Source of the DNA: Clavelina lepadiformis
Lineage: Eukaryota; Chordata; Ascidiacea; Aplousobranchia; Clavelinidae
Length of the DNA: 64,000 nt
Assembly (NCBI RefSeq): GCF_947623445.1
Contig: NC_135240.1
Coordinates: 5,580,001 to 5,644,000, forward strand
Direction of reading: 5' to 3'
Positions within the stretch are counted from its first letter, which is position 1; the number at the start of each line of letters is the position of its first letter. Shown in pieces: positions 1,742-63,128 of this stretch. Below the pieces are notes generated by a model. It did no database searches and was not told the origin of the DNA. It saw only the letters and a program-made list of their open reading frames with translations. Both the position numbers and the translations under genes were made by a program.

Positions 1742-2490
1742 CTGGTACTCTCGCTTTACTGGTTACAATAGTTCTAGCAGTTTGTGGTGATGACCGAGCT
1801 ACCTTTTTCAACATCTCCTATTTCTGTACTTTATTTAGTGCATGAATGTTTATTCTGATGTCCATTTACATATACAAATTATTATTTAAGATTACTTGGT
1901 ATGTCGATGTTTTATGCTGTTTATTGTTCGAGTACTTTGTGTTTTAATTCCTGGTGATTCTGACTTGCTTCCACCCAAGTACATGATTTAAATCAGTTTG
2001 TGTTTTGTGTGAATTGCTCTTGTGAGCGGGGAAAAGTACAGAATGATTTTAATTTTTATCAATGTCGTCAATGTTTACAGTTTTTTTTAAATATTTTGTC
2101 CAAATCAAGCATATGTGTCACGTTCAGGCAGATTCGTGCTCAAATCTTTTGCGTCTAAAAGCGTAAAACCCAAGCAGAAAACATTTACGTCTAATCCTTT
2201 GTACACTAAAATAAAGATGACTATTGAAACAATTACAATACAGAAAATCTACGGTATGGCAAGACGTTGGAAAACATTGTGTACGACGAACAAGAAAATT
2301 AGCAGTGGCCGTCACACTGCGACTGTGTGTAACTTGCGAGTTATCAAACAAACTTTACTTTCTATGGATAAAACGTTTACACGAAGATTGGTTCTGTACT
2401 TTAATGGGCCGGCCGCTAAAAAACAAACCACCACTGGGTGGGCAACACTAGCTTCATCCTACACATGCTTCAGACTGATGATGCTTAACT
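1742..2490. other. Intergenic stretch between SLC30A9 and the MULE
   Basis: AT-rich sequence with T-runs. Short ORFs at 2115-2528 and in the overlapping frames show no recognisable domain and no clear splice structure. I see nothing else here except the left target duplication at 2491-2499. Confidence 0.5.
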
Positions 2491-2508
2491 GTAGGCGATG
2501 GTGGTCGG

Positions 2509-2630
2509 ACGATTCAACCCGCGGATGATTAAACCCAGGAACATTCAACCCACGGACGATTCAACCCCTGGACGATTCAACTCCCGGACGATTCAACCCG
2601 CGGACCTTTCAACCCACGGACCTTTCACGT
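2509..2630. repeat. Minisatellite array, left arm (GATTCAACCC units)
   Basis: About seven tandem units of 15-17 bp built on GGACGATTCAACCC with variable spacers (CGCGG, ACGG, CTGG). The same unit appears reverse-complemented at about 4730-4800 in the right arm. Confidence 0.85.
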
Positions 2631-2699
2631 ACTTATGGCTTAGGTTATCACCAAGTTACTTTGTAGCCAATTGTAAGCTTAATATTGGACAGTCTAGAC

Positions 2700-2997
2700 C
2701 AGGGATGTCCAACCTTTTATTGTAGTGGGCCGCATTGTCACTTGAAATAATTCAGTGGGCCGCAGAAACTATTAAATTTCAAGAAAAATGGATACATCTT
2801 CGAGTCTTATAGTTATATATAACCCTGTTGTTACCATACTATACTATTACTGCACCCCTAAAAGCTGACTGGTACATTTTAATTAGGGTAAGATTGAAAG
2901 TTCAAAATACTACTTGGAGTGAAAATGACTAGCGGGCCGCACAAAAATCTCAGGCGGGCCGCAATGTGGCCCGCGGGCCGCAGGTTGGACATCCCTG
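2700..2997. mobile_element. hAT MITE (298 bp), family A, nested in the MULE
   Basis: Terminal inverted repeats CAGGGATGTCCAACC at the left and GGTTGGACATCCCTG at the right. It is flanked by a perfect 8-bp target duplication GTCTAGAC (2692-2699 and 2998-3005). The 8-bp duplication and CAGGG ends are diagnostic of hAT elements. The interior is non-coding and contains several GGGCCGC words. A second copy of the same family is at 35740-36038. Confidence 0.93.
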
Positions 2998-3411
2998 GTC
3001 TAGACCTAGATTCTAGAGTTAGGCCATCCTGAATAGGCCTGTACGTCGTGGTTAACGGTTATGATACCATTACAATCGTACCGTATTTTCTTCAGGTACA
3101 AACTTAAACTATAACCACAACGAAATAAGCAGAATTATAGCACACAGAATCCCTCTTTCTGCTGTAGAAAAGGTTACTCGTTTATTTTCAAAATAATAAA
3201 TTAACTGGAGACAAGCGACTTATACAACTCTCAAAATGTTTGATCTCCCGATTCAAACTTCTTTGCGGGAAATCTTCATTCCCATCAACAAACAGTTGTT
3301 TCTAAGGCTTGACTTTTAATCGACGTGTAGGCTTTGTTTATTTTTCGCTGAGCAGGCCTACTAGTTACAGCACGGTACATAAACTTGTTTTCATTTCAAA
3401 ACAAGATGTGT

Positions 3412-3491
3412 ATTGGTATAGTGGTAAAAGCGGCATCCTTGCCTGATAACGAACTGCGTATAGACGTTTTTGTAAATGGGTTGAATCGTCG
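3412..3491 (+). other. tRNA-like (Gly-like) degenerate sequence
   Basis: The stretch has a good polymerase III A-box (TGGTATAGTGG, about 3413-3424) followed by a GCATCCTTGCC segment reminiscent of tRNA-Gly, and 50 bp later GGGTTGAATC, which resembles a B-box. No full cloverleaf can be drawn and the 3' half is degenerate, so it is at best a tRNA pseudogene or a SINE head. The B-box-like word is also the repeat unit of the neighbouring minisatellite, so the resemblance may be chance. Confidence 0.3.
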
Positions 3492-3690
3492 GTGTACCGA
3501 CACTTAATCACGCGACACATAATCACGCGACATTTAATCACCGACACATAATCACTAGGACATTTAATCACGCGACACATAATCACTAGGACATTTAATC
3601 ACGCGATACATAATCACTAGGACATTTAATCATGCGACTTCGATACGTAATCACGCGACATTTAATCACGCGACACATAATCACTTGGAT
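3480..3690. repeat. Minisatellite array, inner left arm (TTAATCACGCGAC units)
   Basis: About fourteen tandem units of 15 bp alternating ACATTTAATCACGCG, ACACATAATCACGCG and ACATTTAATCACTAGG. The array reappears as its reverse complement at 4550-4715. Confidence 0.85.
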
Positions 3691-4318
3691 GCGACTCCCC
3701 GACAATTGTTTTGACTCCGTTGCGCCAGCTTTCTCTATAATGTTTCTTTAAATCAACACCAGCTTCATAAAGTCTAATTGTTATATTGTCCGAAAGTATA
3801 ACCTATGTAATATCTAACATTATTCTACTGTATTGTCACCGAAGCTCTTGACCAAAGTACCATCAAAACGTTACACCGTAAAATACAATGCTACTTGTTT
3901 TGTGTCGGTTTTGGAACTCTGGAACAATGCCAATGAATAAATTATTACAATTTACTATCACGACCGCCACATCTCTTTGTATCTATAACGACTAGTCCAG
4001 TCTACAGACAATCTCGTTCCGGATACGGCCCGCGGGCCCTAGGTTGCGGACCCTTGGTCTATACTCTATAGCTTGCCGCTGTCTTACCGTTGTAACTCGT
4101 GGTTATTTCAATTCAGGGGACATTACTATGACTAGACAGTTAATCACACGACATTTATACAGTGTCTTTGTCTATACTATAGCCTGCCGCTGTCTTACCG
4201 TTGTAAATCGTGATTATTTTAATTTAACGGACATTACTATGACTAATAAAAACGGAACGATTCAGTGGCGTGGCAAACTCTACCAGAAATGTCGGGGCGA
4301 ACGGACATTAGGGCTACT

Positions 4319-4549
4319 ATGACTAATAAGACAGTGCAGTTTAGCTTAACATCGAAAGGGAATCAATCGGTGCTGCACAAACAGTACGAGTTTGTCAAAC
4401 ACCGTGAGTACGCAAACGGAACGATTCAGTGGCGTTGCAAACTCTACCAGAAAAGTCGGTGCCAGGCTCGTATAACAACCGAAGTGCAGTTGCTTACATT
4501 TCCTATGCATAACATTGCTGTAAATTGTAAATGTAAAAAAATATTGTAA
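4319..4549 (+). pseudogene. FLYWCH zinc-finger remnant of a MULE transposase
   Basis: A 76-codon ORF reads MTNKTVQFSLTSKGNQSV, then KQYEFVK, then IQWRCKLYQKSRCQARITT. The order F-x-x-S-x-K-G, Y-x-F, W-R-C, C-x-A-R-I is the FLYWCH zinc-finger pattern. This DNA-binding domain is often found at the N-terminus of animal Mutator-like transposases. A shortened duplicate of the same region, joining the start to the WRGKLYQK end, lies just upstream at 4230-4300. The rest of the transposase is missing. It sits in the core of the element between the minisatellite arms. Confidence 0.65.
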
Positions 4550-4800
4550 ATGTGTGATTAAATGTCGCGTGATTAAATGTCCTAGTGATTATGTGTCGCG
4601 TGATTAAATGTCCTAGTGATTATGTGTCGCGTGATTAAATGTCGCGTGATTAAATGTCCTAGTGATTATGTGTCGGTGATTATGTGTCGCGTGATTAAGT
4701 GTCGCGTGATTAACTGTCACCAAACCGAATCGTCCTAGATTGAATCGTCCGTGGGTTGAATCGTTCGCGGGTTGAATCGTCCGTGGGTTGAATCGTCCTA
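4550..4800. repeat. Right-arm minisatellites (reverse complement of left arms)
   Basis: 4550-4715 holds GTCGCGTGATTAAAT/CCTAGTGATTATGTG units; 4730-4800 holds GGGTTGAATCGTCC units. They are inverted relative to the left-arm arrays, so the element can fold back on itself. Confidence 0.85.
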
Positions 4801-4814
4801 GAACCGTAGGCGAT

Positions 4815-6454: not shown

Positions 6455-7553
6455 AAAATTTTCTGTGTTACACGAACAATTTCTCATCAAACATTGCAGT
6501 ACTTTGCAGTTGATACAAAATCTTTATCCTTAGACTGAAGAAAGTTTTTGGAAGCCTTAAACTCGACAATGATTCATCTTTGCTCAAATCTTGATTTGCT
6601 GTTGAGCCTTTGTTCAAGTTTAAATACAAACACATATTCCATTTTGTTTTTTGACCTTTGTTAAGTTTATGTTGTTACCTAAATTTGTCTTCCATTCTTC
6701 TCTTAAAACATAAAAGATCCAGATGTCTCGTTTTCTAGAGATTATACATTTACCATCGAAAAAGAGAAACCAGCAATGTATATAGTCATAAACTTTGCCG
6801 TCTAGTTGTTCTTCATTATGTTGATTATGGTTTTGGTATCGATTGAAATGTTTGATTGATAAGTTTTTTTTCACTGTGTTGGCTCTTGTGTTCGTTTGGT
6901 GTATATACCGGTAAGTTGTAACTCCCACCACATTGCTTCTACAGTATGTATACCTACATTGTACTTTTTGTCCAATTGTTAAACAGAATTAGTCTATATC
7001 TTCTTCGCGCAAAGTTGTTAGTTTTACTTTGTTGTATCTCATTAAACTTTTTAAGCACCTTGTCCATGTAGCATTGAAGGAATACAACATTCAGACATTT
7101 TGCGCCAGACAACAGAATATGCCATACCCACCCCAAAGTTTTTTATGGAGCTAAGCGTTTGCACACCTGCACATTAAATGGTTGTCTCGCCATGAAATAC
7201 GCGATGCTTACTAGTTGCATTACTTGGATCCCATAGTGGAGAGTACTCTTGAGACTTTTCAAAACTGCTCTTGTTGCTCCCGAATGTCAACTTAAGGGGA
7301 ACCTGTGATCTCTAAAAGGAGCAATATTATACTTTCGTTTTTATTTTTCTTTAGACAGGAAAGAGCACAATGTCTCTTTTTTGGCAATTATCATGTGTGT
7401 CTAACTTTAAATGAAGGTTTAGCTCAGAAATATCGACTCACAGTAGTTTGTTTCTGTAATGAATTTAGCCCAACAATTAGTATTTTATTTACTTTGCAGT
7501 GCGCACAAGAAAATCTAACTAAACAATTAGTGGGTGATAAAGTTTTCCACAAA
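6455..7553. other. Region upstream of PICALM, including 5' UTR acceptor
   Basis: No gene recognised to about 7490. A good 3' splice site (TTTACTTTGCAG) ends at about 7499, 55 bp before the PICALM start codon. The ORF can be read open upstream to 7305, but that part is low-complexity intron sequence. This suggests a 5' UTR intron. Confidence 0.5.
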
Positions 7554-9275
7554 ATGGCGGGACAAAGTATTGGTGATAGAATTGTTGCCGCCCAACATAC
7601 TATAATTGGCTCGGATATGTCAAAAAGTGTTTGCAAGGCTACGACTAGCGAAGCAATGGGACCAAAAAAGAAGCATTTGGATTACCTGAATGCTCTGACC
7701 AGCGAAGCAAATGTGAGCATCCCTGAGCTCACTGATATTCTTGTGGAGAGGAGCAAGCAAATGAAATGGGTGATTGTTTTTAAATCCCTGATCACCACTC
7801 ACCACTTGATGTGTTATGGAAATGAGAAATTTTTGCAGCATGTGGCCTCTCGAAATTCTTTCTTTGCTTTGGGACATTTTCTTGATAAAACAGGAGTCCA
7901 GGGTTATGATATGTCAAACTACATACGAAGATATTCCGCTTACTTGAATGAGAAAGCCATTTCTTACCGAACAGTGGCGTATGATTTCACGCGAGTGAAA
8001 AGAGGAAAAGGTGGCATGCTTCGTTCATTGGACGGAGAAAAGCTTTTGAAAGCTTTACCTGTTGTACAGAAACAGTTGGATGCTCTGCTTGAGTTCGATG
8101 CAATTCCCAATGAATTAACAAACGGTGTGGTCAATTCAGCATTTCTGCTTCTCTTTAAGGATCTCATCAGGCTCTTTGCTTGTTACAACGATGGTATAAT
8201 AAACCTTCTGGAGAAATATTTTACTATGAAGAAGGCTCAATGTAAGGAAGGTCTAGAAATTTACAAAAAGTTTCTAACGAGAATGTCGAAAGTTTCTGAT
8301 CTGCTCAAAGTAGCTGAGCAGGTTGGAATAGACAAAGGGGAAATCCCTGATTTGACTAGAGCACCGAGCAGTCTATTGGATGCCCTAGAACAGCATCTGG
8401 ATTCCATGGAAGGAAAGAAGTCTGAAGTGAAGATTGACGATGTGAAGTTGTCTTTCCAGAAGACAGATGAAAGCTTACAAAAGTTAGCGTTAGATGAGGA
8501 GGAATTGCGTTTAAGTGCTTTCAAGAAGGAGAGAGAAAACCAGGAGCATTTTCATCCAGCTCCAGATATGGTTGCAACTGTGCCAGCAAACGCAGCTCCA
8601 ACTACCAGCAGTGCACCAGTTACTTCGGTGCCCAGTAACATGACGGATATGCTCGATATATTTAGCAGCAATGCACCAGGCACTTCTGCAAATACTACGG
8701 CAACTGATTTTACATTTTTCCCGCCAGCAACAAACGCTCAACAACCAGCTCAAGACTTAGCAGCTGGATTGCTTCAGCCAACTGTTCTTGGACAGCAGCA
8801 GCTGAGCATGTCACAACAGGCAGCAGGTCAGACTGGGTTGAATAAGGATTATGAATCATCTCTTGCTGATGTAATGGCTAACCTTACGACTGGAGGCCAG
8901 AAAGGTAATCGTGAGTTTGAACCAAAGACAGAGAAAAGGTTGACCGGCGGTGCCAATTTCAATCCCACGATGCCGCCTGCTGCGATGACAATGCAATCAA
9001 GTCCGATGCATAATATAGCACAACCAATGGCAGCTCAACCACAATTCGGGTATCAAGCCATGCCAGCAATGGGCATGACGCGGCCCGCATTCGCACAGCC
9101 GGTTTATGGAATGCAAGTGAATTATCAGCAACCTATGATGGCCAACCCCAATGCTGTGTCTATGGGTTATCAACAAGTGCCAATGGCCAACTATAATGCA
9201 TCCAATATGTCTATGGGCTTTCAGCAGGGACCTGCACGTCCATTGAATCCTAACAATCCTTTTGGATCAATGTAG
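7554..9275 (+). CDS. PICALM: PICALM/AP180 clathrin assembly protein, single coding exon
   Basis: A 573-aa endocytic adaptor that binds PI(4,5)P2, clathrin and AP-2 at the plasma membrane. I chose the ATG at 7554 (MAGQSIGDRI) because it aligns with the usual ANTH start; the open frame upstream to 7305 looks like intron. Residues 1-290 form the ANTH domain. The phosphoinositide-binding motif K-A-T-x6-P-K-K-K-H lies at residues 28-41. DMSNYIRRYSAYLNEKA and the following helices are typical. The C-terminal half is low-complexity, rich in Q, A, M and P, with DMLDIF (clathrin/AP-2-type) and a terminal NPF (NPNNPFGSM). Vertebrate PICALM and SNAP91 have many coding introns; this copy has none. It could stand for both vertebrate paralogues. 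Confidence 0.95.
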   Translation: MAGQSIGDRIVAAQHTIIGSDMSKSVCKATTSEAMGPKKKHLDYLNALTSEANVSIPELTDILVERSKQMKWVIVFKSLITTHHLMCYGNEKFLQHVASRNSFFALGHFLDKTGVQGYDMSNYIRRYSAYLNEKAISYRTVAYDFTRVKRGKGGMLRSLDGEKLLKALPVVQKQLDALLEFDAIPNELTNGVVNSAFLLLFKDLIRLFACYNDGIINLLEKYFTMKKAQCKEGLEIYKKFLTRMSKVSDLLKVAEQVGIDKGEIPDLTRAPSSLLDALEQHLDSMEGKKSEVKIDDVKLSFQKTDESLQKLALDEEELRLSAFKKERENQEHFHPAPDMVATVPANAAPTTSSAPVTSVPSNMTDMLDIFSSNAPGTSANTTATDFTFFPPATNAQQPAQDLAAGLLQPTVLGQQQLSMSQQAAGQTGLNKDYESSLADVMANLTTGGQKGNREFEPKTEKRLTGGANFNPTMPPAAMTMQSSPMHNIAQPMAAQPQFGYQAMPAMGMTRPAFAQPVYGMQVNYQQPMMANPNAVSMGYQQVPMANYNASNMSMGFQQGPARPLNPNNPFGSM

Positions 9276-20276: not shown

Positions 20277-21710
20277 TTAAGTAAGAAGTTCCGGGTAGGT
20301 CGGTTTAATAAGACAGCTTGCAATAAACGCTAAAAATACTACAAAACATTGAAAAGCCAAAACACCAATTCCACCAGTATAGATATAAAAGACCCGGCCT
20401 AGTTCGGCAAAAATTATTCCAAGGCCGGCTTGAATGCAAGTTCCCCATGCACTGACAAAAGACTCTTTCATAGAATAGGCTTGCAATGTTAAGATTTCAA
20501 ACAACGCCGTCATGCTTATGCGAGCGCTAAACCCAAAAATTGCATTGCAGATATAAAAACCGATAATATAGCGAAAGAAAAGTGCAAACAGTAAACCAAA
20601 GTTGCTAAACAAAACAACAAAAATTCCGATTCTTGCTTGCACTTCGTAACGTTTGTAGTTATCCATAATCTTTCCGGCAACAAAGCTACCAAATAACCCG
20701 CCTACTGAAAACAAAGACATGATGTAACCACTAGTATGGTTACTGTATTCAGTGGCTTGGTTATTTCGGTTCAGAATATTTGCAATTATTTCATTCAGCA
20801 TTGTAAACTCCAAAGAGTTGATGTGAAACACCACACCTAATACCAGAGCAGACAACACAAAGATGCGGTCGTTAAAAAGCATCGTAGTTTGCTTGAAAAA
20901 AGTCGTAATTGTCGGGTCTTCCTTTTTAGAACGTTCGTTTTGTCTCTTTACAAGTTGGGCTTGTGACGGAGGAAGAAGCGGCTCGTCTACGAAGAATGTG
21001 ACAACTAGAACCAGCGTCGACATGGATATAACCAGGAAAACGGCATACATCACTGTTAAAGAGAAATGGTCTTCTTCATACCATGCAGCGCTTGTATTCG
21101 AGTGGTTTTTTGAGTAAATCACGGGACGAATTGAGCCAAATGGAGGTGTAGCGAGAATATTCACTGGAAGTAGGAACCCAAGCAACAATCCGGCAGAAAT
21201 TCCAAATAAATTTCCCCCAATCGCCGTTCCAATTTCATGATCAGGAAACCATATATCCGCAAACACAGCAGGAGTGGAAACCAAAATCGATGCCGTAATC
21301 CCATTACATAGCTGGCCAAAAACCATAACTGGAAACACGAAATGCTTCTCAACTGCTACCGATATAACCGTGCAAAGGTAGGCAAAGCACATCAGCGTTG
21401 CAGCAGTAATAATCAGTTTTCTTAAACGTGTAATATCAGCATAACTCAGCCAAGCAAGCAAAGGTGAAAACAAACAAACACCTGCAAAGCTTGACAAGGT
21501 AAGCCAATCTATGGCAGGGTAGGGCACATGGAAGTATGCCTGATAGACACTACTGGCTTGCCCGAACCCGCTGAAATTGAAAGAGTTAATCGTTTGAAGA
21601 ACGGCCAACATCAACAGCAACGCCCAGCGACGGCGAAAGGTTTTTGTACCACTGGAAACCGATTCCAGAATTGGAGCATTTTCTTCGCAACTTGTAGGAT
21701 GGTCCGTCAT
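20277..21710 (-). CDS. SLC49/FLVCR-like major facilitator transporter, single exon
   Basis: A 477-aa protein with about twelve hydrophobic segments and a long central loop (about residues 245-270). The N-terminal segment reads RRRWALLLMLAVLQTINSFN, then YPAIDWLTLSSFAG and the pair VFGQLCNG / DIWFPDHEIGTAIG. In SLC49 (FLVCR1/2, MFSD7, DIRC2) the matching features are RRW, a helix with N-S-F, AIDWLS, and WFG..E..TA. N-glycosylation sequons occur in the loop between helices 5 and 6 (NHSNTSA). Vertebrate FLVCR proteins move choline, heme or related cations; the substrate here is unknown. There is no intron in the coding region. I am confident of the superfamily and moderately confident of SLC49. 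Confidence 0.8.
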   Translation of the reverse strand: MTDHPTSCEENAPILESVSSGTKTFRRRWALLLMLAVLQTINSFNFSGFGQASSVYQAYFHVPYPAIDWLTLSSFAGVCLFSPLLAWLSYADITRLRKLIITAATLMCFAYLCTVISVAVEKHFVFPVMVFGQLCNGITASILVSTPAVFADIWFPDHEIGTAIGGNLFGISAGLLLGFLLPVNILATPPFGSIRPVIYSKNHSNTSAAWYEEDHFSLTVMYAVFLVISMSTLVLVVTFFVDEPLLPPSQAQLVKRQNERSKKEDPTITTFFKQTTMLFNDRIFVLSALVLGVVFHINSLEFTMLNEIIANILNRNNQATEYSNHTSGYIMSLFSVGGLFGSFVAGKIMDNYKRYEVQARIGIFVVLFSNFGLLFALFFRYIIGFYICNAIFGFSARISMTALFEILTLQAYSMKESFVSAWGTCIQAGLGIIFAELGRVFYIYTGGIGVLAFQCFVVFLAFIASCLIKPTYPELLT

Positions 21711-22595
21711 GTTAACTACTTTACAGAAGAGGGCACTTGAAACTTACCATCAATTCGTTCTAACCAATCATCTAAATTTGTTCCTCACTCATCAATCTCG
21801 TTCTCAGTTTTAAATCTTGTCGAGTCGGTAGAAGCAACCCTACCAGGAATGATAGATTGGACAGGAAGGAATTACGGCGACAGGACGAAATCAGTCATGA
21901 AGTGTAAAGTGTCAGACGTCTCAGGCTAAGCCGAATATAATTTTAACTCATGCATTGTTGAACGTTGCCATGGTTTTTGCTTTAATTTCGGTACAGAATA
22001 TGAAAATAAGGTTGTTGTATTATTACTGTTGTGGAGATGGATATAGGCTACTGCATGTCAATGAGTACAGAGTTATACTGTGGCCATGCTTATAAACCAA
22101 TACAGGAGGTTGAAAAAATAAACTTTTAAAAATAAAATAAAAAATAAATGATATTTCACGTTAACCTAAGACCGTATGCAAAAAACATTTTTTCTGGATT
22201 CTTTTAAAAACACGAATCGTTCACGAAGTAGATTTTATTTGATAAAAAGTATACTCGTGTCTCTATAGCACTTTCTGAAACCAGAATTATGTTGGAATTG
22301 ACTTTGATTAGCTTTGATACATCCGTATATGGCGAAAAAAGAAATAAACCATCACATCAACTAGCTAGGTTGAAGCAGTTCAGCGCCTGTTTGTCCCTTC
22401 GTTACGCTTCCATTGTTTGTTGTCTCCTTCTCAGAGAACAATTGCGCATTCACCAAACTGTGTGAACACAAAAGGCTATGTCATTATTTCTACCTAATCC
22501 ATGTACCCGCTTCAACTACCAATCTATGTGCTTTTAATATCTTTTAAGCAACCTTTCACTTCATGTTGGCCAAACATGGTGAACGTTTCAGTAAT
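21711..22595. other. Intergenic stretch between the SLC49-like and ABCB genes
   Basis: No gene recognised in about 880 bp. It holds the SLC49-like gene's upstream region at the left and the ABCB 3' UTR at the right. Confidence 0.45.
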
Positions 22596-32144
<9,549 letters not shown>

Positions 32145-36328: not shown

Positions 36329-39300
36329 ATGCTGCGTCCTGAAAGATATCAGAGCAAGACATTTCCTTCTGAAAAGAGTGGAAATTATGGAGTTCAAAGT
36401 TCTTTGAGAATGGGGTAAGCATATACAGTAGGATGTTTCATTTTTTCACCATTTTGGAATTTAAAAAAGCTTGGGGTCTCCCTAGGCCGTATTTTGGGCA
36501 CAATGAAAGAATCTGAATTTTTTTTTTTATGACGTCATTTTGAGGTTGCACCCCCTTGTTGAAGTTTCGGTGGGGGTGCATTTGTGTGAATTGGCGATAT
36601 CTTGGTAACCGATTGAGCTAGAGCTATGATCAAGGTCTCAAAAGATGCAGAACAGCTGGTTTCCCATAACCACTCAATACATTTTAACTGTATTTTTGCT
36701 CTAGAAAAAAAGTTATTTGAGAAAAACCGAAATTTTGAAAAAAAACATAAGTTTTGACATATTTTGTATGCAAATCACAATGTAGTTCCCAACCGAACCT
36801 TTATTTTGCTTGGTGGTGATTGTAAACTTTTAGATTGGCATTCGCCATGAAAAGTAAGCAAAATATTTTATATGTAAGCTATACAAACATATATCTAAGA
36901 TAAACTTAAAATTACAGCAGTTTGTGTAAATAACTGCTACATCGGTAGTTCTGGAAAAATCGAGTAAACAATCATGTTAAACTGCGACTTTGATTTCTAC
37001 TTTAGCGTCACTCTACCGTGTAAGAACAGTTCCATAAGCCAAATAACAAATTGTATTTTTTATTCAAATTTATTTTTATTCTTTAAACTAACAACAAACA
37101 ACAGTTCATGTTAGCCCAAAAATTTACTGTCTTCACTAATTGTTATCCATATTGCACAGGTATGCTTGCAAACGAAAATCAGTACGCCACAAAGTAGATT
37201 TGTTTTCACGAATTTTCTCCTGCAGAATATTTTTCAACCATCCAATTTTCCTTTCATTGCACCTATTATTGTTTTCAATGGCTTTCCAAAATTCTGGATC
37301 AACATCATCTGAAGCAATGCCATGAGCTTGTTTTCTGTTCAATGTGAAAAATTGTTTTAAACCAGCATTACGATTCATAAGCAAGTTGTTTACATCGATG
37401 GATAGCGGCATGGAAGAGGATACTTTAACAGCCTCGATTGGGTAAGGTGGCACCTCAGAATAAACACTCAAAGCCACATTTTGGGGGTCAAGCCATTGTC
37501 CCGCATGATCCAAGTAATACTTCATTACCATATCAGCAACATCTGGCTGGATTTCTCTATAAGCAAAAAGAAGGTTGCGTTGGAAAAGAGTAAGAAAAGG
37601 ACCATCACAAGCTTTTGGATGCAAATGTATCATTACAAAAGAGGGTACATAGACTGAAACAATGTATGAAACAATTTTTTCTAATTTTCTTTTTTGATTT
37701 GTGGACATTTGTTGACTTCCAATGTTGAAAAGCAGAAGACGAAGGTAGCCGCTGGCAGTTGTTATCCATCGTGAGTGACTTATGCTCTCCTGTTTGTATG
37801 TTAAAAGGTTTTTTAGATTTTCCGGAACATTCATCAGCAAATGAGAAGCTAACACTAACAAGCACAATTCGTCACTGCGGAAACTGTTGTCTACCATTTT
37901 TTCCTTTTTTTATGTGCAGTGCTGCAATCTTTGTAATCAGAATAGTTACAGTGTCACATGGAATTAAATCGTTTAGAACGGGCTTCTGTATTGTTTTTAT
38001 AATATTCAGTAATGCACCATCTTCAAGTGCTCTGGGACCTTTTTTTCCACCTTCTATGAAACGAATAACATGGGACAGATATATTTCATTGACATGAAAT
38101 AAACATTCCAAGGTATGAATCCCATGACCAATGGTCAAACTAAAATAATCTGCTAAGCGTTTATTTACTCCTGACACCCTGCCTGTGTTAACAGCTGTAG
38201 TGTCCGCCATGACTGAGTACACCTTATTTAGAGTATCACCGCATACCTCATCAATAATTGTGGAGAAAAGTATTTCCCCTGTAACTGATGTTCCTTTGGG
38301 AAAGGTTTTGACACCAACAATTCTCTCACATTTTTTATTCTGGTCATCCAACAACTGACCAACAAAAACATACCGGTCAAGTGAGTTAATCACCCTACCA
38401 TCATAACACAGTTGCATTGCACTACACGACTTTATCTCTAATTGGCATCTTTCTAATGCTTTCATTCGTACTTTCTCTCTTCTGCGAAAAATAGTTGTTG
38501 GAGATGCTGCGATTTTTTCACGTGCCAAAGATCTCAGTTGGTCTGAGTGCTGGCGTATGGAAGTCATACGGCGGTCAGCTAGCATGCACATCTCCTGATT
38601 TACAGAAAACGTATGAATTTTTTTATAGAATTTTCCACCAATTACTTTCTTGATTTCAAAATCTGGGTCTGATTTATGATCTCCTGAATCTGATTCCGAA
38701 TCTGACATGACGTTGAAATTTTGGATTCCAGACTTTTTTCTTATTTTATCAGCAATAACATACTTTGAAGATAAGCTAGAAGACGAACAATTTTCAGTAG
38801 ACTGCTCAGGGTAATATTTTCGCTTATTACGGTAACTTTTACTCAAACAGTTGATCTGACATGTTGACTTGTAGGCAAAATATGTCAAAATTTTGGTTTT
38901 TCTCAAATAACTTTTTTTCTAGAGCGAAAATGCAATTAAAATGTATTGAGTGGTTATAGGAAACCAGCCATTCTGTTATAGGAAACCAGCCACAAGACAC
39001 CTTGATTATGGCTCTAGCTCAATCGGTTACCAAGATATCGCCAATTAGAAAAATGCACCCCCACTGAAACTTCAACAAGGGGGTGCAACCTCAAAATGAC
39101 GTCATAAATTTAAAAAAAATTCAGATTCTTTCATTGTGCCCAAAATACGGCCTAGGGAGACCCCAAGCTTTTTTAAATTCCAAAATGGTGAAAAAATGAA
39201 ACATCCTAATATACAGGTTGCATAGCTAACTTTCCACCACTGAAAAGTAACTACCTGTAATTTGTTGAAGAAGGATGCATTGTATCAGTATACTTGTGAG

Positions 39301-40048
39301 CAGCATACCTTCTTATCAGTATTTTCTCCTTCTGTAATTTGAAGTTTATAAATATAAAACAGCGTTCCTTTTTGTTAATAAAAAAAGAGGTGGAGATAGA
39401 TTTCCATGTGTTCTGAATACACGTAGCACTCGGTCCATGAATTTGACATATTTGGTACACCTGGTATAAAATTCATCTAAAAGTTGACGTAAAATTTAGA
39501 CTAAAGCAAAACCAAAGTGATTTGAATACTGCCCATCCCTTAGAAGATTCTGAAAAGAGCTACGATGTTAGAACAAAACAATCTAATCTTACAACTCTAC
39601 GAAATATACAGGTAGAGGAATATGCATGTCTTGTAGTGGTTTGTTGTACACCATTGACTTACAGATGGTATATATGCCTTATTTCTTTCTACACTTTGTC
39701 CTCTATGATCGTGTTACACAGGGTGTTCATGCCCCACTGAAGATTCAAATGGAGCTAAACGCTGTGAACAAAGCAGTAACCAGATTGCCGTCGTTACCTT
39801 CCTCAAATTTTGCAAAAGATATTTTGAATGGAACCGACGATTTAATTCTTCCCAGTGATGTGTTTGGAAGTAAGATAAAATTTGAGAGCCGTTTAAAAGC
39901 ACAACCCAAAGTTGCATGCTGCAGACATTTTGAACATATTCACTCTGTCGTTATACTAAAGTGTTTCTTTTTAGGTCGTCTCGACTCTGAAGTTATTGGA
40001 GACCCTCATCTCATGATGGAACACAAACTTGGCCTCAAGCCTCTATGA
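36329..40048 (+). CDS. POMP: POMP (proteasome maturation protein)
   Basis: Chaperone needed for assembly of the 20S proteasome core. Four exons with closing phases: 36329-36414, 39500-39611, 39722-39869, 39975-40048, giving 139 aa (human 141). The protein reads MLRPERYQSKTFPS .. SSLRMGLKQNQSDLNTAHPL, then EDSEKSYD, LTTLRNIQGVHAPLKIQME, LPSLPSSNFAKDIL, and ends VIGDPHLMMEHKLGLKPL. The segments HPLE.SEK, TLRNIQG..APLK.QME and GDPHLM.E.KLGL are diagnostic. Exon 1 to exon 2 spacing matches human POMP exactly. Intron 1 is enlarged from about 300 bp to 3.1 kb by a transposon inserted 14 bp after the donor. The gene is tail to tail with PAN3. Confidence 0.95.
36429..39208 (-). mobile_element. DNA transposon with long TIRs in POMP intron 1 (hAT-like?)
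   Basis: A 2780-bp element with a perfect 8-bp target duplication ATATACAG (36421-36428 and 39209-39216). Terminal inverted repeats are about 330 bp long (36429 to about 36765; about 38877 to 39208) and begin TAGGATGTTTCATTTTTTCA. They are highly similar, with one short internal duplication in the right copy. It encodes one transposase on the minus strand. The 8-bp duplication fits hAT or P-type elements, but hAT ends normally start CAG and are short, so the superfamily is uncertain. TIR agreement and open reading frames suggest a fairly recent insertion. Confidence 0.9.
37136..38906 (-). CDS. Transposase of the POMP-intron element, two overlapping frames
   Basis: ORF1 (38906-37872, 344 aa) and ORF2 (37897-37136, 253 aa) overlap by 26 bp and lie in different frames, ORF2 being +1 relative to ORF1. 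Together they look like one transposase. ORF1 has a Cys-containing N-terminal segment, then MADTTAVNTGRVSGVNKRL and HGIHTLECLFHVNEIYL. ORF2 has ISHSRWITTASGYLRLLL and ends LQAYLCNMDNN. The D, C-x2-H-x2-N and RW signals recall hAT-type cores. The same arrangement occurs in uncharacterised proteins of arthropods and cnidarians, as I remember them. The frame change falls in an A-rich run (ATAAAAAAAGGAAAAAATGG), so it may be a mutation, a sequencing error or programmed frameshifting. Confidence 0.75.
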
Positions 40049-53547: not shown

Positions 53548-54274
53548 TTAATAATAGGTCAACGTTTAACAATTTCTGACAAACGCTTCTTTACGAAGTT
53601 AGTCATTTGTTGTTTGATTTCCTGTGACGCAATGAATGACTTGAAGAAACCGGTTTGTCCAGAGACTAAGACAAGACAGCCTACTAGAAACTTTGAAATA
53701 TCGCGTTTTCGAAAACAAACTCTTTGGCTAATTTGTAGGCAACAAATTCAGACATTTTAGAAAGGTTAGGGTCATTTATTTTGTTTTATCATAACTTCAC
53801 AAGCAATCACCATAGCTTTTGCTATTATCAGGATATTGTGTTGATGGTCAGTCTATAATAACTTCGAACCGTTTCGTTTCAAGCTTATTATCAGTTGGAA
53901 GAAAATAAATATTCTTTAAGTTTCTCTTTTGCTAAAAAATGTTTACTACTTAAAAAAAAGTGGTAAAATAGCCATGTTGTAAAATATCGAATATAAATAA
54001 AGCTGCGACTATTTCATCAGAAAATATTATGCGTTCGAAGCTATTTTTCACAGTTTTTTGTATAAATCAATTCTTCTAACCTAATCGCCTATCTTTGTTA
54101 TTTTTGTATTCATTGATGTAAATTGGATTGTTGCATATCAGCTTAGAGTAGCCTGTAATTCTAGGCGGAGAGAATATTAAGGCCACGTACAGTCGTAATA
54201 TGCAAGAGCTGTAATTTTTCTACCACTTTTGAGAAAACGTTATTAAGGACGGCGGAATACTTTAATCGCTTCAT
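53548..54274. other. Upstream region of NAT copy A
   Basis: AT-rich, no gene recognised. TATCGCTTCATATG just before the start is shared with the sequence around NAT copy B and marks the conserved promoter-proximal end. Confidence 0.45.
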
Positions 54275-56055
54275 ATGATGCAACAACGTGATAAGGGGAG
54301 ACAAATGGATTTGCAAAAATATTTACAACGTATCAATTACGACGGACCAATTGACAACCAAGCAACTACTTTGTACGAATTGTGCGCTTGTCATTACAGT
54401 CATGTTCCCTTCGAGAACTTGGATATATTTGGCGGGCCTCGGAGAAGCATGGACCTGGATGAAATTGATAATCGTGTCGTGAACGAAAAGCGCGGTGGTC
54501 TCTGCTGCGAAATCAACTCTCTCTTTGCCTGGTTGCTACGAAAACTGAAATTCGAAGTCGAATTTATCCAAACGCAACTTTACAACAAAAAAAACGATTC
54601 GTACGATGGCGACCTTGAGCACATGGTCTTGCTGGTGAGGATACATATATCGAATAAAGCAACAATTTTGTTCCGGTAATGTTCAAAATGCTGATGTTTT
54701 AGCGAATTAATTTAACGAAGACCTTGTGTGTATGTAGCCTATATTTTAAGCCAAATTATAGTTGTGCATTTTCTGTAAGTTGCGACCAGCGCAAAACAGC
54801 TGTCTCTTGAATTCTGATGGATAAGTCTGAACCCAATTAAAATAGTTTTCGACGTGATTATTTCACCGTATGTAGGTCACGTATACTGTTGTTAAAGATA
54901 GATGGTTAGGTTGGGAGAATGGCCATGCAAAAAGTTGATTTTAGCTCTTTGAGGTTTTATTGGATTTAGAATTAACACAAAAGGTAGATTTAGGTTAGGT
55001 TTAGGTTAATATGTTATAATATTTAAGTTAAATTAACAAGAAACTGAATAAAATAGCTTCGAACACACGGTTTGTTTCCGGTGTATCAGTGGCAGCCAAT
55101 AGATTTCCTCAATTATCAGCAGTTTGTCACGTAATGTCTTTCTTTGATTATATCACAATTCAACTGTTTATGCTTGTTCTACGCGTTATTGTACTGTGTA
55201 TGATTCTACACATCTAATACAGTTGATACAGAGACCGGACGCCATCGTGATGTGAATAATATCAACGATATATACTGGATTATAATGGCTATCAAAGTGC
55301 TTGTCATTGACGAAAATATCCTTTCGTTCAGGTTACTTGCAAAAACGATGAAAAGTTTATTGCCAATATCTCTGGGTGTGCTTTTGTTCGTCCGCTTGCT
55401 TTGATTGACATGAAGACGCAAGTGCAAAGATGTGGGGCCTATCGACTAAGAAAAGAAACAGATGATGTTTATCTGGTAGAAAAGATGCAAAAAAAAGTCT
55501 TCAATCTTTCTGGTGATTGAAACTGTTGCATCAGATCTGTAAATCTGGTTTTAAAACAATCAAGATGTTTAAGTTAATTTAATTTTCACATTCACTTGCG
55601 CTAGTAAAATATTTTGTCATCTTAGTTGAAATACAAGACATGTTAACAACTATATGACATTAAAATTATGTCTTAAAGGGCGAGAAATCACGGGGTTTTC
55701 TTCAGATGAAGACTGCTGGCAGGTGATCCAGAAATTAGAAATTATCCCTCGATGTTGGTTGGATTTTAAACCGACGTTTTGGCACATTCTTGACAAAAAA
55801 CAATCATTTCTCAGCAGAAACACAATTTGTACGATAGAAAATGACTCTGGAATTCGCGTATTATGGGGAATGACTTTCTACAAGAAGGAATACATCGACC
55901 ACTGCACGGAGAAAATAATAAATGTGCAAACAGCACAAGATGAAGAAGAAATGAAATCTATACTTAAAAATTACTTCAATATTTCAATTGATTATGATCT
56001 TAAACCTTGTAGCCCAAACTTGAAAAAAGAGGAATTGGTTCGTATGAGCTCGTGA
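54275..56055 (+). CDS. NAT: Arylamine N-acetyltransferase, copy A
   Basis: Cytosolic enzyme family that moves acetyl from acetyl-CoA to arylamines or hydrazines. Three exons: 54275-54634, 55332-55512, 55679-56055; phases close, 305 aa (family about 290). MDLQKYLQRINYDGP is the typical N-terminal helix, then HVPFENLDIFGG and the active-site motif RGGLCCEINSLFAWLL (catalytic Cys in RGGLC). EHMVLLV carries the catalytic His. At the catalytic Asp position (family VDAGSG or VDVGFG) the sequence is FIANISGCAF, so Asp is replaced by Asn. The C-terminal domain (RNTICTIENDSGIRVLWGMT, then FYKKEYIDH) is conserved. The start could be Met1, Met2 or the Met of MDLQKYL. Its paralogue is at 61331-62676. Confidence 0.92.
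54893..55075 (+). repeat. Repeat in NAT intron 1, inverted copy at 63825-64000
   Basis: About 180 bp (GGTTAGGTTGGGAGAATGG .. CATGCAAAAAGTTGATTTTA .. AAATTAACAAGAAAC) match the reverse complement of the last 175 bases of the window at high similarity. NAT copy B intron 1 lacks it. Confidence 0.75.
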
Positions 56056-57322: not shown

Positions 57323-59363
57323 CAGGCCAACAAAAAAATTTTGGCATGGAAGGTAAGACCGATTTTAGGGTATATCAGGGGCGCTGAGCTCGAAAATGCC
57401 ATTAGTTTTTGCAAATTGGCTCTAGTTTTTAAGATATTAGCGAGTTTTGATATTTTTGGTACCTTTTAATTTTGAACGTAGGTTGCATTTTATCTTAAGG
57501 AACATCCTATATTAAAATGTTGTTGTAAGTCTATCTGCACTAAAACCACAAGAATGAGCAAAAGCTAAAGACACAATGAGATTAGCTAAATGAAGAAGTG
57601 CTGCATAAGTCTATTCTTTTCAGTATATTCAACACAAAAAAATGCCCCATTTATTCGTCTTTTCAACAGATTCTCTTAACATATTGCAATGTGTGAGACT
57701 AAGCTTCCAATACCACATTAAAACTTGCTTGAAGTGAACAATAAATAGCAGTAATTTGGTAATAACAAACCAAGTATGCCTAAGCCAACACAAGAAAGAC
57801 GACAATTTGTAAAAACAGACGAAATAAACAAGCAATCAATTTTTTTATTTGCCACGGAGTATTCAAAACAAAACACCATACGAAAAAATATACCCATCTC
57901 AGGATGTGCATTAGTGAAGTTCTTAGATGCACTCTAGTTAATTACTCAAATTAGCTTAAAGTCATCTTCAGGAAAGTTCTCTTGTACGACTTTTGCCTGT
58001 AGTCTGGTTGTGGACAGCTTCGCATTAGGCCCCAGCAGTAATCTGCCATCATGTGAGTATCCCATCTACCTTGATAACTCTCTTCCATTAATTTGATATC
58101 TTGGTGAAACCTTTCACCTTGTTCCTCACTCATATTTCCGAGGTTTTCAGGCAAGCGATCCAAGTAACTGAATAGATAGTGAACTTTTATGCTCATCCTT
58201 GATCCAAGAGCTTGAAAGTTTGTAAGCTTTACTTCTATGAGATCCACATAGCTGCGTGCTTTTGTGTTTCCAAGAAATCCTTTTACAACTGCAACGAAAG
58301 AGTGCCTTCTCAACTTCAGTCATATATGATGGAAAAACTTTCGTATTTGTGGCCCATCAAAAATTCCTGCTTTCAGCGTTTCAATACTAAGACCAGGAAA
58401 TACTTTGCACAGGTAATCAAAACAAGCACCATCTTTATCTAATCTAAGGCCTTGACAAATTGTTTCATCAAACCCAATCTAATGTGCAATGTGGGTAAAA
58501 GGATGCGATCACAAATGACCAAAGGTTCATTTACAATGTTTTTATCTTCGTGCACAAGCTGTTCACGTATGGGCCATTCCTTTTTAATCCAGCGTTGATC
58601 AGTGGCCCGACTATCCCAGTAACAAATAAAGCAGGGATACTTGGTGTAGCCGCCTTGTTGTCCTAAGAGAAAGTTGAACATTTTCAAATAAACGCATATC
58701 TCCCAGTTATGCTCAGTATAAGAAAGTTTCTTCAAGATCATCTTTACACTTTGGTAGTGTTCCTTTAAAACGACTGAGTGGCCAATTGGAACACAGGCAA
58801 ACTTATTTTTGTTGTGAAGTAGCACACATTTCAAGCCTTTTTTGGAGCTGTCAATGAATGAACTCCATTCTTCTGGTTTATACTCAAGTAGACCCATAGA
58901 TGAAAGAAGTCCTTCGATGTTTTTACAGTACACAAAATTATCTTCTTGAGAGAAAAATTGCATTAACATTTCTTCTCTGTCCCTGTAAAACGTTATTTTT
59001 GTTGCTGAATCAAGAATGTTATGCTATGTGTTGATGTTAGGGCTTATGTTAGTGCTTGATGGGAGATGATATAAACTAATCTAAGGTCTTATTTACCTCC
59101 CAAGCGAGAAATTTGTGCCAGACAACTCAACATTTGGGCAAAACTAAATAGCTGCTTCACATGGCTTCAGTTTTTGTTAACCTACGTTACTCACTAGCAT
59201 ACATTTGTAACTTTTCATGGCGTATTTAGGAAAAAGCAATATCTCAAAAACTAGAGCCAATTCAGCAAAAGTAATGTCATTTTCGGACTCAGCGCCCCTG
59301 ATATACCCCTAAATCGATCTAACATATCATGCCTTTTGAAAAAAAAATTTTTTTGTTGGCCTG
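57323..59363 (-). mobile_element. Decayed transposon of an uncharacterised family (2.04 kb)
   Basis: Inverted ends about 130 bp long: left CAGGCCAACAAAAAAATTTT .. ATATCAGGGGCGCTGAGCTC .. TTGGCTCTAGTTTTTAAGAT, right the reverse complement with some divergence. Flanks AATTATCA and TGTTATCA agree at six of eight positions, so an 8-bp target duplication is likely. It encodes on the minus strand a protein of a family common in animal genomes and usually annotated as uncharacterised. The CAG start and 8-bp target would fit a hAT relative, but this is an inference. Confidence 0.75.
57951..58969 (-). pseudogene. Transposon protein with GQQGGYTKYPCF and SEEQGERFHQDI motifs
   Basis: Part 1 (58969-58439, 176 aa) reads MLMQFFSQEDNF .. 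GLLEYKPEEWSSFIDSS .. FNLLGQQGGYTKYPCFICYW-type sequence and ends LGLMKQFVKALD. A 5-bp duplication (TAGAT) just after this shifts the frame. The continuation, DKDGACFDYLCKVFPG .. DGPQIRKFFHHI, ends at a TGA near 58320. Part 2 (58313-57951, 120 aa) reads LGNTKARSYVDLIE .. NLGNMSEEQGERFHQDIKLM .. MMADYCWGLMRSCPQPDYR and ends with its own stop. So one protein is broken at two places. The CFIC pair and the HIRLGLMK and SEEQGERFHQD blocks are the conserved signatures I recall from aphid, cnidarian and other unnamed proteins. Function is unproven but is likely a transposase. Confidence 0.7.
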
Positions 59364-61330: not shown

Positions 61331-62676
61331 TTAGCGCAATTCTTCCAAGTGTTCCTTCGTGAAGTCGAAACTGCAAGGTTCAATATCGTAATCTATGAGA
61401 ATTTTGAAAAAATTTTTCAGCAACATTTTCAATTCTTCTTGATCGTTTGCTGTTACCACACTGACAACTTTCTCTGTGCAGTGATCGACGTATTCTTTAC
61501 GATAAACAGTCATTCCCCATAAAAGAGTGAACCCCATCTCACGCTCGGCCCTGCAAACTGTGTTTCGATTCGTAAAGCAATTCCTCTGTGTAACAATATC
61601 GTCAAATATTGCTTGAAACTCGAATGCCTGTCGTGGTGTTGTATCGATTTTCTGAATTAGTTGCCAATCGTCTTCAGTGTGAGGCTTCGTGATTTCTTTT
61701 CCTTGAAATTAATGTCGGTTTTGTGTCATTAGATGTCAAAGCTGCTACAATACCGCCATAACACAAAACTGAAAGCTTGCACTTGTTGTGGTTTTCTAGG
61801 CCTATGTCCTACCCGCAAAGCTGAAACATTGTTTTTGTTTCTTTTCTAGCAAATAGACATCATTGTCCTGCTTCTTAAGACGTAATGCTCCGCTTTTACG
61901 AACTTGTTCCTTCATGTCCACAACAGCCAGTGGAAAGTTGTAATAAAATCCACTGAGGTTGACAAAGAACTTTTCACCATGGTTGCACGTTACCTGGCAA
62001 TAAATGGTGTAAGTTTTTCGCACATCTTTGAATCTTGTATAATTTCATAGCTGTATAAATAGATTAAAACTTGCTCATTGCGCTGAGATGTTTAGCCTCA
62101 AGTAGGCTACACCATAAGGAAATTATAAGCAGCTAAATATACTTCATCGTGTACAGACTATACGTAATTTTGGTAGAAAAAAAAACTGGAAACCTAAAAA
62201 ATCTCAAGTTTTAAATAAGGTGTAGGCTACTTGAAATATTTTGATATATCGTCTACAATTGACACCAACATTTATTTCATTTAGCATTCATAATACAACA
62301 ATCATGTAAAAATGCTTACCAACAAAGTCGAGTGCTCCAGCTTGCGGTCAAATGTCTTCGTTTTTTGTAAAAAAACTTGATTTTCAACAAGTTCAACTTG
62401 AAATCTTATTTCTTTTAACAGCCAAGCAAAAAGTATGTTTAGTTCACAGCAAATTCCTCCTCGATTTTCTTCGATTATTTTTTGGTAAATGTCATCCAGG
62501 TCCATGCTTCTCCGAGGCCCGCCAAATAAATCCAAGTTCTCGTAGGGAACATGGCTGTAATGACAAGCGATCAATTTATCCAAAGTAGTTGCTTGGTTTT
62601 CAATTGGCCCGTCGTAATTGATACGTTGTAAATATTTCTGCATATCCATTTGTCTCCCCTTATCACGTTGTGGCAT
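61331..62676 (-). CDS. NAT: Arylamine N-acetyltransferase, copy B
   Basis: Paralogue of copy A on the opposite strand. Exons 62676-62320, 61993-61813, 61701-61331; phases close, 302 aa. Exon 2 is 181 bp, as in copy A. MQKYLQRINYDGPIENQATT and HVPYENLDLFGGPRRS are nearly identical to copy A. The active-site block is NRGGICCELNILFAWLL, the His is in EHSTLLV, and the Asp position is again Asn (FFVNLSGFYY). The C-terminus (ITKPHTEDDWQLIQK, FTLLWGMTVYRKEYVDH) is intact. The ATG at 62676-62674 lies inside the target duplication of a hAT MITE, so the gene has lost its original adjacent 5' UTR. A second in-frame Met (MDMQKYL) nine codons later may serve as start. Whether it is still expressed is unknown. 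Confidence 0.9.
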
Positions 62677-62681
62677 ATATA

Positions 62682-63128
62682 CAGGGTTGCCATCAATCTA
62701 GACTCAAAAATAAGGACAACCAGGAAACAAGATAAGATTAAAAAGGAACAAAAGTTGCTGAACGGAACTATTGGCTGAACTATTCATATGATACGTCAAT
62801 TCAACGTAAAAAGCTATGGGAAAAAGTGAAGTGTCTAAGAACATGAGACGCCATCCACCACAGGTCTTGTCTAAGTGTACTTTTGTTTGCAGATTGTCCA
62901 TTTACTATTCCTATTCCTATTATATTATCATCTTGCTATTCCTATCTTTGTTTCTAGATGGCGCACTAAGGTATATCGAAATTCCCAATATGGAAAGCTC
63001 TGCTTTAAACAAAAGACAAAAATAAGGACGCAAATGAAAGTAAGTACATTTCTTAGACGTAAGGAAAAAATGATTTTCTAAGACACATCACGTAAGTACA
63101 AATCTTAGAAATAAGGACGGTAATCCTG
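62682..63128. mobile_element. hAT MITE (447 bp) at the start codon of NAT copy B
   Basis: Ends CAGGGTTGCCATC and GGTAATCCTG with a perfect 8-bp target duplication CATATATA (62674-62681 and 63129-63136). On the NAT strand the duplicated word is TATATATG, which contains the ATG. AATAAGGAC words occur near both ends. ORFs inside are not recognised. Confidence 0.85.

Follow-up and report, generated by a model that had tools for sequence, protein, structure and literature searches.

We consider it very likely that the transposon in the first intron of the proteasome-assembly gene POMP in the sea squirt Clavelina lepadiformis belongs, as a non-autonomous copy, to a low-copy cut-and-paste family that resembles the hAT elements in how it works and most probably shares their descent, and that hATm is the closest kind described so far. 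The window analyzed here is a stretch of 64,000 nucleotides (chromosome 1:5,580,001-5,644,000). On the strength of its ends, its target-site duplications and comparisons of transposase profiles, the family would best be called a divergent hATm-like one. We write "hATm-like" rather than treating it as a member of hATm because the domain PF05699 was not detected in its transposase.

The insertion in POMP

36329..36414 (+), POMP coding exon 1, from the ATG; limits read from the sequence rather than from a transcript
36421..36428 (+), left target-site duplication, ATATACAG, from the sequence
36429..39208 (no strand), transposon copy, 2,780 bp, a non-autonomous internal-deletion derivative; boundaries from the terminal inverted repeats (TIRs), the duplication and comparison with the genome's 26 other copies that have both ends
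36429..36738 (+), left TIR, ~310 bp, starting TAGGATGTTTCA, from alignment of the arms
38885..39208 (-), right TIR, ~324 bp, from alignment of the arms
39209..39216 (+), right target-site duplication, ATATACAG, from the sequence
39500..39611 (+), POMP exon 2, from the PF05348 match and an in-frame join; limits read from the sequence rather than from a transcript

The identity of the host gene is supported by a Pfam search, in which frames downstream of the element matched UMP1 (PF05348) with E=2.3e-13; a second downstream POMP frame matched the same family at E=3.6e-4, short of Pfam's own cut-off. Exon 1 is followed by the splice donor GTAAGC from 36415, and exons 1 and 2, with limits as read from the sequence, are in frame when joined. 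The element begins 14 bp past the end of exon 1, inside intron 1, as the preliminary description had it, and the PF05348 matches and the donor GT at 36415 bear out that placement. Without the 2,780 bp of the element and a single copy of the 8-bp duplication, the intron would measure 297 bp. That description also supposed that splicing tolerates the insertion, and we agree that POMP probably does so, since the splice donor and the acceptor are both preserved and the ~297-bp intron has only become longer.

The boundaries are clear. A perfect 8-bp duplication and ends starting TAGGATG had been claimed, and both are found: ATATACAG stands at 36421-36428 and at 39209-39216, and the termini read TAGGATG...CATCCTA. 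The TIRs had been put at 330 bp; the arms are indeed long and nearly identical, but slightly shorter than that (~310-324 bp). The two arms of 310 and 324 bp are 89.5% identical by blastn, 291 of 312 aligned bases are identical in a mafft alignment that has 29 gap columns, and the outermost 97 bases are the same in both. Each TIR contains a perfect palindrome, TGACGTCA, and a hairpin-like TGCACCCCC...GGGGGTGCA (36530-36583 and its mirror in the right arm), both of which are possible protein-binding sites.

Transposase remnants and the deletions that made them

37136..37897 (-), transposase remnant ORF2, 253 aa, in another frame than ORF1, from the open reading frame and comparison with the full-length copy L015
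37872..38906 (-), transposase remnant ORF1, 344 aa, from the open reading frame and comparison with the L015 frame
37905..37911 (-), site of a 29-bp frameshifting deletion common to the window copy, L009, L013 and L016
38838..38840 (-), junction of a 742-bp internal deletion with TTT microhomology, common to eight copies, by which the transposase N-terminus is lost

The reference for these remnants is L015, a full-length copy of 3,544 bp on chromosome 7, whose single open frame runs for 765 codons, or 756 when counted from the first ATG. In ORF1 of the window copy the first 22 residues are foreign to the transposase frame, and the remainder matches the L015 frame from residue 189 on. ORF1 carries a first Asp (38400-38402), a second Asp (38202-38204) and a CxxH motif (38094-38105), whose roles are suggested by alignment to hAT transposases including Hermes. 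ORF2 carries RW at 37766-37771 and, tentatively, a candidate catalytic Glu in NERK (37253-37255). The 742-bp deletion spans positions 2446-3187 of the L015 element and has TTT at either edge; with it went the frame's first 188 residues, among them a Cys cluster (C130, C132, C134, C149 and C151). The copy had been described as "near-intact", which does not hold given the missing 742 bp and the 29-bp frameshifting deletion. Nor can the window copy alone be active, as had been suggested, for it cannot encode a whole transposase; its ends are intact, and it could move in trans.

The window copy has two open reading frames because of the 29-bp deletion. An alternative, that ORF1 and ORF2 form one gene read by programmed frameshifting and that the copy is intact and autonomous, draws on the overlap of the two frames at an A-rich stretch. 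We reject it as almost certainly wrong: L015 and L017 read straight through the ORF1/ORF2 junction in one frame, with 29 extra bases, and the window copy also lacks the N-terminus that divergent copies possess. The genome note reports a QV of 67.4 (PMC10884593), and the short indels are therefore likely to be real.

Copies of the family in the genome

The assembly searched comprised 95 contigs and 209.06 Mb, and the genome note gives 102 scaffolds and 210.1 Mb (PMC10884593). A search with the left TIR gave at least 46 matches, from 40 scored of 108 candidates. We examined 33 loci, namely 26 from these matches, six from protein searches (L044-L049) and the window copy; a short protein match, L050, was left out of the analysis of ends. 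Both ends are present at 27 of the 33.

By similarity to L015 and a junction search, the 742-bp deletion occurs in eight of the 33 sequences (the window copy, L009-L013, L017 and L018), which occupy separate sites. L028, in which a gap of comparable length has different edges, was excluded from this count. Divergent copies (L044-L048) retain the transposase N-terminus, and the long form is therefore ancestral. The 29-bp deletion is found in the window copy, L009, L013 and the one-ended L016. The fuzzy pattern used for its junction fires on undeleted copies too, and only copies without the undeleted sequence were counted. The window copy, L009 and L013 occupy three distinct sites, each flanked by its own duplication (ATATACAG, ATGTATAG and GTAAATAT). 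Thus, copies broken by the 742-bp deletion, and some by the 29-bp deletion as well, have been inserted at separate sites and were moved in trans, their lineage having gone on transposing after it could no longer produce a complete transposase. The window copy and L012 have the 8-mer ATATACAG in common, but the flanking bases beyond it differ. In six short foldback copies (635-674 bp) there is hardly anything besides the two arms.

The proposal of recent mobility is supported. Pairwise identity among nine copies of the window-copy size is 95.6-99.9%; the window copy is closest to L009 (98.9%), and L017 and L018 differ at 3 of 2,780 bases. An age estimate based on divergence between an element's own left and right TIRs was dropped, as arms from the same side of different copies mostly resemble each other more than the left and right arms of one copy do. 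When the window copy is compared with L009-L013, L017 and L018, left arms are 98.0-99.7% and right arms 94.1-97.6% identical, against 94.3-95.7% between the arms within those copies. L028 is exceptional, with 93.2% (left) and 94.6% (right) against the window copy and 99.0% between its own arms.

An exact duplication flanks 20 of the 27 two-ended copies. The preliminary description had looked to variable duplication length as counterevidence; none was seen, all 20 exact duplications being 8 bp long and the other seven copies inexact. Three of these (L014, L031 and L047) have one mismatch, and at the nominal position 3-6 mismatches are seen in L015, L021, L034 and L045, although by inspection L015 reaches 7/8 once its left end is granted two additional bases. 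The exact duplications follow the consensus nTnnnnAn (T2 in 19/20, A7 in 20/20), which is the target preference described for Hermes (PMC10368747).

Relationship of the transposase to hAT enzymes

The transposase had been placed in a family without a name, and Pfam bears this out in that no significant match was obtained for the window ORFs, L015 or L017. For the same proteins PF05699 was unlisted at E up to 10, a search in which HMMER filters discard most matches above E ~0.1. A BED finger was likewise undetected by Pfam. Matches to Asparaginase (ORF2, E=0.24) and to DOG1 (L035, E=0.11) were dismissed as short of the Pfam cut-off. Sequence searches of the PDB gave no convincing relative of the transposase, the matches judged unconvincing being levansucrase (E=1.5), enhancer of rudimentary (E=0.024 and 0.05) and Lin2960 (E=0.51). 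An AlphaFold2 model of window ORF1 residues 101-344, built from the single sequence without an alignment, had a pLDDT of 41.5 and is uninformative. A scan of viral contigs with three proteins found no relatives.

Direct profile comparison was equally negative: a first hhalign round with few hAT sequences gave no significance, and the element's own family profile matched none of eight hAT profiles directly (E 0.16-0.74). The link to hAT runs through a second, distant family in the Clavelina genome (family 2, L035-L043), whose ends are TAGGGTTATGAC (TAGGGTT) and which by inspection has the duplication ATATATAT with AT-rich flanks in two copies. Many diverged fragments of family 2 are clustered at the start of chromosome 1 (~0.99-2.62 Mb). 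The window element's family (family 1) and family 2 match by BLASTP with E=3e-7 and 23% identity over 538 alignment columns; in the reverse search of the genome with the family 2 protein, window-element copies were listed only at E 0.07-0.37. The two families have in common YDGR/FDGK, ADTT/CDTT(A/S)VNTG, CxxH and RW, with the motifs in register.

The family 2 profile in turn matches the profile of eight Clavelina hAT proteins at E=0.0013. This alignment extends across 256 columns and keeps D, D, CxxH and RW in register; no column shuffle out of 300 scored as high, and the reversed profile gave 0.63. Against seven other hAT profiles the E values were 0.021-0.36, and against an early hAT profile 0.051, with 3 of 200 shuffles as high. 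A joint two-family profile also matched hAT (E=0.011) and was discounted, since 41 of 300 shuffles scored as high. The eight hAT proteins were taken from PF05699 matches in the same genome, and the two that were sent to a PDB search both found Hermes. For scale, five hAT profiles of this genome were compared with one another, and the ten comparisons ranged from E 0.37 to 2.9e-56. The D-D spacing is 66 in L015, 59 in family 2 and 68 in Hermes. We take the catalytic residues of Hermes to be D180, D248 and E572, and we located these positions in the PDB alignments of the Clavelina hAT proteins. For the third acidic residue there are only candidates, E727 of L015 (in NERK) and the E of AERG in family 2.

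Could the family instead be a separate, unnamed transposase superfamily, with only an RNase H core and an 8-bp stagger in common with hAT and a target preference that became hAT-like by convergence? We think this unlikely. The lack of any significant Pfam or PDB match, the absence of PF05699 from the matches, an N-terminal CxCxC cluster where no BED finger was found, and the failure of hAT profiles to match the element's own profile all speak for it. Against it, family 2, homologous over 538 columns, matches hAT with all four motifs (D, D, CxxH, RW) in register, and the termini, duplications and target preference are all consistent with hAT/hATm. A further idea, which we offer as speculative and regard as unlikely, is that the two Clavelina families form a deep sister lineage of hAT in which the BED finger and the hATC dimerization domain were lost or replaced, the long-TIR family using its TIRs and Cys-rich N-terminus for the synaptic complex instead of an octamer of the Hermes type. 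If the dimerization domain is truly missing in structure, such an enzyme would show how a hAT-like transposase pairs its ends without it.

Comparison with described elements

Ac, another hAT element, has TAGGGATGAAA at its ends, a likeness to the element. Hermes and Ac resemble the element in their 8-bp duplications at nTnnnnAn, in CxxH and RW and, for Hermes, in a D-D spacing of 68 against 66 here. They differ in that a BED finger and an hATC dimerization domain are recognizable there but undetected in the element, and in that the TIRs of ordinary hATs, whose duplications are 8 bp, are given as 10-25 bp (PMC3942097) compared with ~310-324 bp here. Long arms are known from hATm, which has been proposed as the fourth family of hAT and counts more than 74 entries in Repbase, with TAGGGTG/CACCCTA ends, 8- or 9-bp duplications and two members with TIRs of 417 and 575 bp (PMC6004678); Hydra hATm-3 has the 8-bp duplication TATATATA (PMC8721813), to be set beside ATATATAT in two copies of Clavelina family 2, whose ends are TAGGGTT. 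The likeness extends to TAGG ends (TAGGATG/CATCCTA agrees with the hATm termini at six of seven bases), an 8-bp duplication length, TIRs of hundreds of base pairs and animal hosts (PMC6004678). It is a likeness to hATm as described there, and the hATm-6 transposase is reported to have PF05699, which was undetected in the element.

The combination of long TIRs, TAGG ends and 8-bp duplications has thus been described already, in hATm (PMC6004678). The suggestion of an undescribed superfamily gives way before the T2/A7 8-bp duplications, the TAGG termini and the D-D-CxxH-RW order, all of which point to hAT, and before the long TIRs of hATm. A clear assignment to a known superfamily, which the preliminary description had set against its own claim of novelty, is now largely in hand for hAT, and a candidate "new superfamily" is removed. 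For a branch of hAT that has been little studied, the genome offers a compact natural set of forms with the same ends: one full-length copy whose frame is open, deletion derivatives, and MITEs of the foldback type.

We rate as highly improbable that the element is of the Galileo type, within the P superfamily. Duplications of 7-8 bp occur in Galileo, but its target preference differs from that of the element, and the P-element target is GC-rich, unlike the consensus nTnnnnAn found here. The long foldback-like TIRs are a likeness to Galileo, whereas the Galileo transposase has THAP-type domains (PMC3688188), and no THAP or P-element transposase match was listed for the element by Pfam at E up to 10.

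In the hATm-like family, the transposase of L015 or another intact one would bind the long arms via its Cys-containing N-terminus. Cutting would be carried out by a D-D-E RNase H-like site, and insertion would follow with an 8-bp stagger. Copies with good ends that are deleted or form foldbacks of 635-674 bp may be carried along by the intact enzyme.

Other features of the window

Elsewhere in the window, positions 2506-4805 hold tandem arrays of 16-bp and 31-bp units, inverted around a core of ~0.9 kb and resembling a foldback element with repeat-filled arms. Two arylamine N-acetyltransferase-like genes lie in inverted orientation at 54266-56052 (+) and 61334-62697 (-), and PF00797 matches one tested frame in each (54266-54676 and 62305-62697). 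Between them are open reading frames at 57954-59023 (-), which resemble an uncharacterized mobile-element protein; the one frame tested, 58442-59023, had no Pfam match. By eye, ABC-transporter-like exons are seen at 23592-30320 (-). An MFS transporter frame (PF07690) lies at 20280-21743 (-), and an ANTH-domain frame of 659 codons at 7296-9272 (+).
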